A stretch of 64,000 nucleotides of DNA from Mesorhizobium loti. GTDB taxonomy: Bacteria; Pseudomonadota; Alphaproteobacteria; Rhizobiales; Rhizobiaceae. Location: contig AP017605.1 of NCBI GenBank assembly GCA_002356515.1, forward strand, positions 4,721,001-4,785,000, written 5' to 3'. The translations under genes and the position numbers were made by a program. The notes under the pieces were generated by a model. That model worked only from the letters and a program-made list of their open reading frames with translations, searched no databases and was not told the DNA's origin. Within the stretch, counting starts at the first letter, position 1. Every line of letters begins with the position of its first letter. Positions 25,835 to 28,625 of this stretch are shown piece after piece.

Positions 25835-26707
25835 TCACGCCGCCGCTGGGGCCGAGTCCCGGATCAGCGAGGACCAGCGTCCCGGCGTCATGCCGAACGC
25901 TTTCTTGAATTGCCTGTTGAAGTGGCTCTGGTCGGTGAAGCCGGCCTCGACCGCGATCTGCGCCAGCGGTTCGCCGGCAGCGATCATCCGCCGCGCGCGC
26001 TGAAGCCGGCGCATCACCAGGAAACGATGCGGGCTGGTCGAGAAGGCCGCGCGGAAATGCCTCGATAAGGCATAGCGGTCGAGCCCGGTGATAGCCTCCA
26101 GTTCGCCGGATCGCACGGGCCGCGTTGCGTTCTCCGTCAAATAGTCCCGCGCCAGCGCGGCCGCCCGCCACGCCGTTCTGGCCATCGGCTTCGCCGGCTG
26201 GCCGGCATGGCGCGCCAGGCTTCGCATCAGTTGCGTGAGAAAATCGTCGACGAACAGCTCGTCGAGTTCCTGCTGCAGCGGCCCCAGCGCCGAAAGCAGC
26301 GTGGCGCAGAAGGCGTCATCCTTCACCACGGCATCCCCGACGAAGGGCAGAGAAGCGCCACCAAGGCAGTCCAGCATCAGCGACGGTTCGAGATAGAGCA
26401 TCCTATAGCGCAACCCATCCTCGGTGCCGGCGCCGCCATCATGCAATTCGTCGGGATGCAGCACGATGATCTGGCCGGGCAGGCTTAGCCGCGTCGCGCC
26501 GCGATAGCGAAAGGTCTGCACGCCCTGCAGCGTCACCCCGATCGCATAGGTGTCATGACGATGCAGATCGAAGGCGCTGCCATGAAAGCGCGCCTCGATC
26601 CGCTCCATGCCCGCAGGGTCGGGAGCCGAGATGATGCAGTTCTCCGCCGCCTCGGTGCACAAACGTCCAAGACCCTCGAAGGCATGGCGGCCTAGATCGT
26701 GCGACAT
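25835..26707 (-). CDS. AraC-family transcriptional regulator
   Basis: 290-residue regulator with an N-terminal AraC-type cupin (FDLHRHDTYAIGVTLQGVQTFRYRG, IIVLHPDELHDGG) and two C-terminal helix-turn-helix motifs (SGELEAITGLDRYALSRHFRAAF and LAQIAVEAGFTDQSHFNRQFKKAFGMTPGRW). Start set at 26707 because GAAGGAG sits 6 bases before it; the ATG at 26728 is in frame but falls inside a palindrome. It is divergent from a DUF2000 gene 52 bp away, its most likely target. Confidence 0.9.
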   Translation of the reverse strand: MSHDLGRHAFEGLGRLCTEAAENCIISAPDPAGMERIEARFHGSAFDLHRHDTYAIGVTLQGVQTFRYRGATRLSLPGQIIVLHPDELHDGGAGTEDGLRYRMLYLEPSLMLDCLGGASLPFVGDAVVKDDAFCATLLSALGPLQQELDELFVDDFLTQLMRSLARHAGQPAKPMARTAWRAAALARDYLTENATRPVRSGELEAITGLDRYALSRHFRAAFSTSPHRFLVMRRLQRARRMIAAGEPLAQIAVEAGFTDQSHFNRQFKKAFGMTPGRWSSLIRDSAPAAA

Positions 26708-26718
26708 CGTCTCCTTCA

Positions 26719-26734
26719 GCCCCGACATCGGGGC
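26719..26734. promoter_or_regulatory. Palindrome between araC-type and DUF2000 genes
   Basis: GCCCCGA-CA-TCGGGGC, exact 7-base arms with a 2-base centre, in the 52-bp divergent promoter region. It could be an operator for the AraC-type regulator or a short RNA hairpin in its 5' leader. Function is inferred from position only. Confidence 0.4.
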
Positions 26735-26759
26735 ACAACCTCGAATGGTCCATTTTCTC

Positions 26760-27167
26760 ATGTTCGATACGAAATTTGCAATCGTGCTCAGGGAAGATCT
26801 GCCGGTCTGGCAGAAGCTCAACGTCACCGCCTTCCTGACCAGCGGCGTCGTCGCGCAGTTTCCTGACATCATCGGCGAGCCCTATCGCGACCGCTCAGGC
26901 AATCTTTACAATCCGCTGTCGATCCAGCCGGTCATCGTGCTGTCCGCCGACCAGGCGGCGCTGGCCACCATCCACCGGCGCGCGCTGGAGCGCGGCGTGA
27001 CGGCCTCCCTCTATGTCGAGGAGATGTTTTCCACCGGCTTCGACGCCGCCAACCGCGCTGTCTTCGCCGAGTTCGCACCCGATGACGCCAAGGTGGTCGG
27101 CATCGCGCTGCGTGCCGAGAAGAAGCTCGTCGACAAGATCACCAAAGGCGCCCGCATGCACACATAA
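26760..27167 (+). CDS. DUF2000 domain protein
   Basis: About 135 residues, beginning MFDTKFAIVLREDLPVWQKLNV, the usual opening of DUF2000 proteins, with a peptidyl-tRNA-hydrolase-like fold expected from the family. Later conserved blocks are NLYNPLSIQPVIVLSAD and VEEMFSTGFDAANR. An ATG five codons earlier (26745) is an alternative start; neither has a strong ribosome site. It is divergent from the AraC-type gene and probably its regulatory target. The catalytic role of the family is unknown to me. Confidence 0.82.
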   Translation: MFDTKFAIVLREDLPVWQKLNVTAFLTSGVVAQFPDIIGEPYRDRSGNLYNPLSIQPVIVLSADQAALATIHRRALERGVTASLYVEEMFSTGFDAANRAVFAEFAPDDAKVVGIALRAEKKLVDKITKGARMHT

Positions 27168-28410: not shown

Positions 28411-28476
28411 GATCTCGCTCACCTTGTCGGTGGGATTGAAGGGAGGGTCTGACGGGGCGGCCCAAATTCCGGGCAT

Positions 28477-28498
28477 AAAAAAGGCCCCGTCAGGAGCC
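28477..28498 (-). terminator. Intrinsic terminator in the leader of the efflux pump (attenuator)
   Basis: On the minus strand GGCTCC-TGAC-GGGGCC forms a 6-bp stem (one G-U pair) followed directly by six T (28482-28477). It lies 67 bp before the transporter start on the same strand and after a short leader peptide, so it would stop transcription before the pump gene unless overridden. Confidence 0.7.
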
Positions 28499-28506
28499 TG
28501 CTTACC

Positions 28507-28553
28507 GCGCATGGGTGCTTTCGCCGGATGGTTACACCATCCTGCCCATGCGC
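28507..28553 (-). ncRNA. Leader RNA stem-loops preceding the attenuator
   Basis: On the minus strand GCGCATGGG (28553-28545) pairs with CCCATGCGC (28515-28507), an exact 9-bp helix. Inside it GGATGG/CCATCC (28542-28537 with 28531-28526) forms a second 6-bp stem whose loop contains the UAA stop of the leader peptide. A ribosome on the leader would disrupt both stems, coupling translation to downstream folding. Confidence 0.6.
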
Positions 28554-28588
28554 TCCCTTACGACGATCAAAACCATTGCGATGTTCAT
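28532..28588 (-). CDS. Putative leader peptide of the efflux-pump attenuator
   Basis: An 18-residue open frame, MNIAMVLIVVRERMGRMV, ending in TAA inside the loop of the inner leader hairpin. It has no Shine-Dalgarno, but the predicted promoter would start RNA at or within about 2 bases of its ATG, so it would be read as a leaderless message, as known for the Sinorhizobium trpL leader peptide. The RER triplet resembles the basic-X-basic stalling motif of macrolide-responsive leader peptides. Translation is not shown; the assignment rests on the arrangement of promoter, ORF, hairpins and terminator. Confidence 0.55.
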   Translation of the reverse strand: MNIAMVLIVVRERMGRMV

Positions 28589-28596
28589 GGCGCCAG

Positions 28597-28625
28597 AGCT
28601 AGGCGCAAAAGGTGCATGTCGTCAA
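28597..28625 (-). promoter_or_regulatory. Sigma-70-type promoter for efflux-pump leader
   Basis: TTGACG (28625-28620) and CTAGCT (28602-28597) on the minus strand with a 17-base spacer, close to the rhizobial consensus CTTGAC-N17-CTATAT. Transcription would begin about 28588-28591, coinciding with the ATG of the leader peptide. Confidence 0.6.

Follow-up and report, generated by a model that had tools for sequence, protein, structure and literature searches.

A probable valine-specialised transcription attenuator of the ilv-leader family ahead of an MFS transporter gene in Mesorhizobium loti

The leader of ilvBN in Escherichia coli, IvbL, carries runs of valine codons in an attenuator that controls biosynthesis, and T-box leaders switch on amino-acid permeases upon starvation. 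For the Alphaproteobacteria, three sources refer to an ilvB leader peptide (Vitreschak 2004, cited in PMC1273637), to an “ilvIH cis regulatory” element of S. meliloti (PMC2573895) and to a Caulobacter operon controlled by attenuation (PMC4117421). The leader described here belongs to the same RNA family as the ilvB/ilvIH leader and shares with it the hairpins, a stop codon in a hairpin loop, the terminator, and an ORF beside the promoter with branched-chain codons. It differs in carrying a Val-Val pair instead of a Leu-Ile-Val run, in preceding a transporter gene that it would control, and in being followed, in 48 of 64 MFS-linked leaders, by an additional segment (element E). Two further systems invite comparison. 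As described in PMC7298713 and PMC10117765, the trpL/rnTrpL leader of Sinorhizobium likewise combines an AUG at the transcript start (predicted in our case), a short peptide and a terminator, whereas its Trp codons and two mutually exclusive structures have no counterpart that we could find at this locus. The BmrB-BmrCD system of Bacillus subtilis also places a leader peptide and a terminator ahead of an exporter; according to PMC4191407, it responds to ribosome-targeting antibiotics, and we liken it to the present locus by description, not by sequence.

The window analysed here is a stretch of 64,000 nucleotides from Mesorhizobium loti (contig AP017605.1), to which the coordinates of the locus refer. 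An initial annotation had described on its minus strand a promoter, an 18-codon ORF, two nested hairpins with the UAA of the ORF in the inner loop, and an intrinsic terminator, all ahead of an efflux-pump gene. Each of these parts is present between 28625 and 28477(-), ahead of the MFS gene, and the UAA lies in the inner loop as had been proposed (Table 1). The leader folds with a minimum free energy of -46.2 kcal/mol (z -2.18; 6 of 200 shuffles equally good), which is modest alone; that the leader stands above chance follows from its Rfam match and from its conservation ahead of orthologous MFS genes. TTGAC lies 35-38 nt upstream of the ATG in 62 of 63 MFS-linked leaders and the RF02502 model begins at the G of the leader ATG; from this promoter spacing and the start of the model, the transcript is predicted to start at the ATG. 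Nearby, an EamA transporter gene (PF00892, 28678-29763) is divergently oriented on the opposite strand with its start near the leader promoter, and a gene for a DUF2000 protein (26607-27167) converges on the end of the MFS gene, with an AraC-type regulator gene beyond it (25835-26872). In the window a 446-codon ORF runs open through the terminator and on in the frame of the MFS gene, but translation along this path was considered and rejected: the longest downstream ORF starts inside the stem-terminator stretch at only 2 of 31 loci (L001, L027).

Table 1. Coordinates of the leader, its downstream gene and related features (window positions unless a locus is named)
Feature	Coordinates	Strand	Remarks
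Promoter TTGACG-N17-CTAGCT (from sequence)	28597..28625	-	TTGACG 28625-28620, 17-nt spacer, CTAGCT 28602-28597
Leader ORF, 18 codons, MNIAMVLIVVRERMGRMV	28532..28588	-	ATG at 28588, the predicted transcript start; UAA 28534-28532 in inner hairpin loop
Tandem Val control codons GTC GTA	28559..28564	-	Val at both sites in 57 of 57 distinct ORFs
Outer stem, 9 bp	28553-28545 with 28515-28507	-	Span 28507..28553; encloses inner stem and a small GGCGAAAGC hairpin
Inner stem	28542-28536 with 28532-28526	-	Nested inside outer stem
Intrinsic terminator and U-run	28477..28499	-	Arms 28499-28493 with 28488-28482; U-run to 28477
Rfam RF02502 Atu_C8 match	28467..28586	-	112.3 bits, E 6.1e-24
Element E, GCCCCGTCAG	28449..28458	-	10 bp complementary to terminator loop and 3' arm (CTGACGGGGC)
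MFS transporter gene, 412 aa	27172..28410	-	Nearest Bcr/CflA (PF07690), by profile matches
ALS copies with changed Gly121	L113 4572-6371, L121, L123, L211, L212, L224, L228; L114, L115, L119		Ala or Ser

The initial annotation did not recognise the element as a named riboswitch, and no riboswitch name applies to it, but the RNA does belong to a named family: it is a full-length match (model positions 1-122, against a gathering threshold of 50 bits) to RF02502, filed as “Rhizobiales sRNA Atu_C8”. A second copy in the same genome stands ahead of an acetolactate synthase (ALS) gene. Among 31 RF02502 loci examined, ALS lies downstream in 27 and orthologous MFS genes in four (the window locus, L001, with L004, L005 and L007); the ALS genes were named from their translations, and the L113 protein was also matched to solved ALS structures. 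Since ALS follows in 27 of the 31, this “sRNA” is for the majority an ALS leader. The kinship of the window leader with the alphaproteobacterial ilv leader, of which it is a paralogue, is near certain. A literature search on “Atu_C8” returned only unrelated plant work, an MFS gene behind an RF02502 leader was not found in the titles and abstracts searched (mostly non-subscription literature), and no word beginning with ilv occurs in PMC3738593 or PMC5596092.

Matches to RF02502 occur in 47 of 61 genomes of relatives and the organism itself, in 290 of 297 family genomes and in 217 of 397 order genomes, with 72 of these 397 above the gathering cut-off. Of the genomes behind 59 alphaproteobacterial MFS loci, 50 were searched for the family and all carry it: 48 twice, one once and one three times. 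Thirteen family genomes have two matches, and in this tally, which leaves out the second copy of G111, the second copy stands ahead of an MFS gene of the same clade in eight (G000, G270, G363, G467, G650, G672, G687 and G748, the last degenerate at 30.5 bits), ahead of ALS in G537 and G618 and ahead of an ABC exporter in G734; the second match of G647 (29.6 bits) is by eye no leader.

Val occupies the third and fourth codons before an invariant CGC in all 57 distinct MFS-linked ORFs, collected from 63 rows with L132 left out (a degenerate leader with no promoter recognised). Codon usage is GTG 39, GTA 16 and GTC 2 at the first site and GTA 41, GTG 15 and GTT 1 at the second. The neighbouring codons, including those between Val-Val and CGC, vary, and Val-Val is the only invariant codon pair between start and stem; the ORFs are kept open and in frame, their length differences being whole codons. 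The collecting script required one Val in residues 4-12 and a stem-like C-terminal motif, and an independent scan with neither requirement gave the same leaders in the named-genome set. Judged by these comparisons, Val is kept as an amino acid and the tandem control codons are under selection. As the two Val codons are the conserved signal, valine-tRNA charging suggests itself as the direct input, and valine is the likely signal of the attenuator. The main ilv leaders of relatives carry ALILV, LIVV or ALILVV before the stem. The window ORF contains no Trp codon, and the initial annotation had already noted the lack of a Trp run; the likeness that it drew to the leaderless trpL attenuator holds for the layout ahead of the MFS gene but does not extend to Trp control codons.

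Three helices are conserved among 107 RNAs: outer stem, inner stem and terminator. In an alignment of 35 loci, 99.1% of cells are paired and 14 cells are changed on both sides, a count reached by none of 500 shuffles, while further pair types are no more numerous than in shuffles (490 of 500). The outer stem tells little on covariation, as eight of its nine pairs never vary in the 35 loci. The terminator helix, lying between leader ORF and gene, has 99.2% of its cells paired in the same 35. All 35 MFS-type terminator stems contain a U-G wobble, never C-G, at columns 96 and 105 of alignment A3. Among the 107 RNAs, no conserved antiterminator exclusive with the terminator and longer than 4 bp was found to touch the terminator arms. 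Constrained folding of 14 leaders with ribosome footprints blocked, run to three bases into the U-run, left the terminator in place in most states; it was weakened in L074, L126 and L137, at least equally with a ribosome at the stop codon. Given that no conserved antiterminator was found, we claim kinship with ilv leaders and attenuator-like action, not the textbook structure, and the absent textbook switch is the main weakness of the attenuator reading.

Our preferred reading, which we hold to be probable, is that the element is a ribosome-dependent transcription attenuator of the ilv-leader family (RF02502) that is specialised for valine and stands before an MFS gene, most likely one for an exporter. 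At the level of sequence, its parts, the selection on Val, the terminator, the kinship with ALS leaders and the co-inheritance with an MFS clade are apparent; we infer the translation, the stall, the sign of the response, the read-through and the export. The transcript would begin at the AUG or beside it, and ribosomes would translate the leader without a ribosome-binding site. With valyl-tRNA plentiful, the ribosome would reach the UAA, RNA polymerase would stop at the terminator and a short RNA would be released. With valyl-tRNA short, the ribosome would halt at the Val-Val pair, two codons short of the outer stem. Once the second Val codon occupied the A site, the ribosome would cover the RNA as far as about nt 40, including the base of the outer stem, and by masking that base it would allow more polymerases to read into the MFS gene.

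Whether such a switch would govern export or import turns on the transporter. The gene had been annotated as a Bcr/CflA pump, and Bcr/CflA efflux is indeed its best NCBIfam model, but its score of 175.2 bits is below the curated cut-off of 200.9. The same model, TIGR00710, gives 217.1 for a Pelagibacterium orthologue (L077), which passes, and 191.9 for L146, which falls below 200.9. Were the attenuator to control an importer of valine or a precursor, starvation would switch on uptake, in keeping with the invariant Val codons and with standard amino-acid attenuator logic; the importer models PunC and FslD do score on the MFS proteins, below their cut-offs. Against this, the best NCBIfam models for the MFS proteins are efflux families, and the same type of leader in G734 precedes a fused ABC transporter for which exporter models score best (all below cut-off), which leaves an importer rather unlikely. 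The neighbours of the MFS gene, compared at 54 loci, are not conserved between clades and give no clue to cargo; a group of 19 loci shares conserved upstream genes, which we take to encode an amino-acid ABC transporter, and a downstream gene for a 1170-aa protein.

Named genomes yielded MFS relatives at 59 alphaproteobacterial and three archaeal loci, and the counts leave out L072 and L088 (without upstream DNA) as well as the archaeal L091-L093. The ORF, hairpins and terminator to which the initial annotation had directed a search of relatives are kept ahead of 56 of the 57 orthologous MFS genes with upstream DNA; L084 has lost the leader and keeps an apparent terminator end. A search of 150 order genomes reached MFS relatives down to 29% identity, and the 30 loci fetched include the window's own and seven with a Val-codon leader ORF, stem and terminator (L140, L141, L144, L145, L146, L147 and L157), of which L141 (Val-Phe-Val) and L144 (GTG start) were recognised as leaders only on closer reading. 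The scan gave no leader in 20 MFS loci at <=~40% identity, nor was one present at the distant MFS loci L142 and L143; an upstream match at L148 was judged chance and the row labelled none. At some of the distant loci a purine-rich site precedes the leader start codon, and such leaders look led, not leaderless; in other families, where a ribosome-binding site seems to be in use, Val-rich leaders that retain stem and terminator stand ahead of several MFS orthologues (e.g., MILLVVVVGEMRVDR). In a tree of 55 proteins (L157, a partial sequence, left out), a clade with 100/100 support unites 35 rows, 32 of them with a leader, compared with 0 of 20 sister rows, and the leader label changes 4 times, compared with 17.8 in shuffles, none of 500 being as low. 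This distribution indicates that the leader has long belonged to the transporter gene and was not inserted recently. The MFS gene of two Mesorhizobium genomes is apparently broken, being split into two frames at L213 and having no in-frame ATG at the usual place at L005.

Element E, of 8-11 nt, ends 25-31 nt past the U-run in the 48 of 64 MFS-linked leaders that have it, and its sequence is complementary to the loop and 3' arm of the terminator. It is absent at the usual place in 16 (the Devosia group, L068, L007, L126, L128, L130 and L132), and was not seen by eye in 16 main ilv copies. In 35 chosen loci 96.0% of the cells of the E helix are paired, against 33-51% when the segment is slid; its covariation score was reached by 2 of 500 shuffles, and its number of pairs changed on both sides, of which there are only three cells, by 27 of 500. 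With so few double changes, these shuffle counts and related sequences, support for the helix is fair, not overwhelming. Because E lies after the U-run, it would act only in read-through transcripts. A role for E in masking the MFS ribosome-binding site was set aside as only suggestive (46 loci, median p 0.115, nine at <=0.05).

A pattern for terminator and E, applied in two versions to genome sets that overlap, matched, once each, 10 of 394 family genomes and, in four genera, 51 of 148, 14 of 146, 6 of 20 and 1 of 16; 18 places among the 51 were left unclassified, and the reversed pattern gave none among the matches listed. Sixty such loci were fetched, and the 54 distinct ones comprise 46 with MFS, six with ALS, one with an ABC exporter and one orphan; a seventh E-type ALS, in G017, had been missed by the pattern. 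The orphan (L216) has neither MFS nor ALS/ABC in 1500 nt downstream, and its MFS-like ORF ends after 12 codons. The ABC exporter locus (L170, the same place as L120 of G734, with the leader from about 440) has a gene that opens with MFS-like codons (MTSNNP), so a gene swap behind the leader looks likely. A third RF02502 copy in Rhizobium miluonense (L117 6191-7351) has no E and an unrelated MFS downstream, for which the best model, 2A0121, scores below its cut-off.

The ALS copies behind E-type leaders share a change in sequence. The second Gly of GYPGGA, read from an alignment to yeast AHAS and corresponding, in the usual numbering, to Arabidopsis G121 and yeast G116, is Gly in all 59 main-copy ALS rows (some from the same genome) and Ala in all seven E-type copies. 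It adjoins the herbicide site Ala122 and is itself known as a resistance site from work in yeast. Pro197 is replaced by Ala in four of the seven (G537, G618, G1104 and G1108), and the Trp574 site is Trp in G017, Ser in G618, within a missing segment in G537 and past the end of the fetched DNA in the other four. An unchanged main copy is also present in G017, G537 and G618. Outside the family, RF02502-linked ALS is changed at the same Gly in tandem copies of G388 (Ala) and G342 (Ser) and in G305 (Ser); a tree of 28 ALS rows, nine of them changed, forces three separate changes and places six E-type rows in one clade. Ala122, Pro197 and Trp574 are plant herbicide-resistance sites, and G121 is absent from the resistance-site lists in the available parts of the same two sources (PMC11861483, PMC7072869).

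The changed pocket suggests selection through a ligand that binds there, be it natural or synthetic, and on this sequence comparison a sensor of branched-chain synthesis inhibitors is a fair bet. Lack of valine could then signal, indirectly, that a compound is blocking branched-chain synthesis, and the response would be export or, in some species, a site-altered ALS behind the same leader; this is the physiology that we favour, though at less than even odds. With similar reserve, we can picture for soil Hyphomicrobiales a valine-starvation attenuator that senses such blockers, in which one leader module may drive an interchangeable MFS pump, ABC exporter or spare ALS with altered pocket, read-through may proceed without a classical antiterminator, and the helix between the terminator and a 3' segment may add a second layer. 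Alternatively, unrelated genes might have captured the leader simply as a convenient regulated promoter, in which case no common physiology would link MFS, ABC and ALS. Single cases, namely the ABC exporter (L120) and a different MFS without E (L109), speak for capture; the retention of MFS and leader together over several families speaks against it, as does the altered pocket residue common to 7 of 7 E-type ALS, although the six in the tree form one clade and may reflect one event. Capture is unlikely in our estimation.

The initial annotation had read the leader as drug-responsive, its peptide containing a stalling motif, RER. A drug-inducible leader of the ErmCL, MsrD or BmrB type would release the pump through its nascent peptide or through slowed ribosomes. 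The BmrB leader is much longer than the window leader. The layout and the pump are compatible with such a device, for which BmrB-BmrCD is a precedent as ribosome-mediated attenuation of a multidrug transporter (PMC4191407), and ribosomes might also stall at Val-Val if translation slowed in general. The motif itself did not hold up: the two codons before CGC vary in the 57 distinct ORFs, the first being G in 29, I in 11, R in 8 and others, and the second R in 21, E in 14, G in 14, A in 5 and others, such that RER is one variant beside GRR, VER, IGR, TKR, SRR and GAR. Since these residues vary and the stretch is common to ALS leaders, its shape seems to be set by the RNA stem. No conserved drug-arrest motif of the ErmCL or MsrDL type was found at the RER position in the 57 ORFs, Val-Val is the sole invariant pair between start and stem, and the leader is paralogous to that of ALS. 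Direct stalling by an antibiotic is unlikely, and a drug-inducible stalling leader as a whole is highly improbable; of the earlier proposal, the leader-peptide attenuator layout stands and RER stalling does not, while toxic compounds may still evoke a response indirectly, through starvation. Equally improbable is a released small RNA or peptide acting in trans as the main product with MFS control secondary, as reported for rnTrpL and peTrpL of Sinorhizobium in PMC7298713: the near-invariance of the outer stem can reflect recognition that goes beyond pairing, and Rfam files the family as an sRNA, but the MFS follows the leader in cis through the clade and only 1 of 54 leaders is an orphan.

With a valine-specialised attenuator at this locus, an Rfam family catalogued as an sRNA would gain a likely function, and an attenuator of biosynthesis is linked to a transporter in soil and plant-associated bacteria of several genera. 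The missing antiterminator turns the mechanism of read-through into a concrete question. Should valine starvation indeed report on blocked branched-chain synthesis, this would be an unusual case of a starvation sensor detecting inhibitors of a pathway, and the ALS paralogues named here may tolerate natural ALS inhibitors. A switch that appears to sense a lack of valine, previously known ahead of a biosynthesis gene, also stands ahead of a membrane pump in many soil bacteria, and in some cases ahead of a spare enzyme whose inhibitor pocket is altered.
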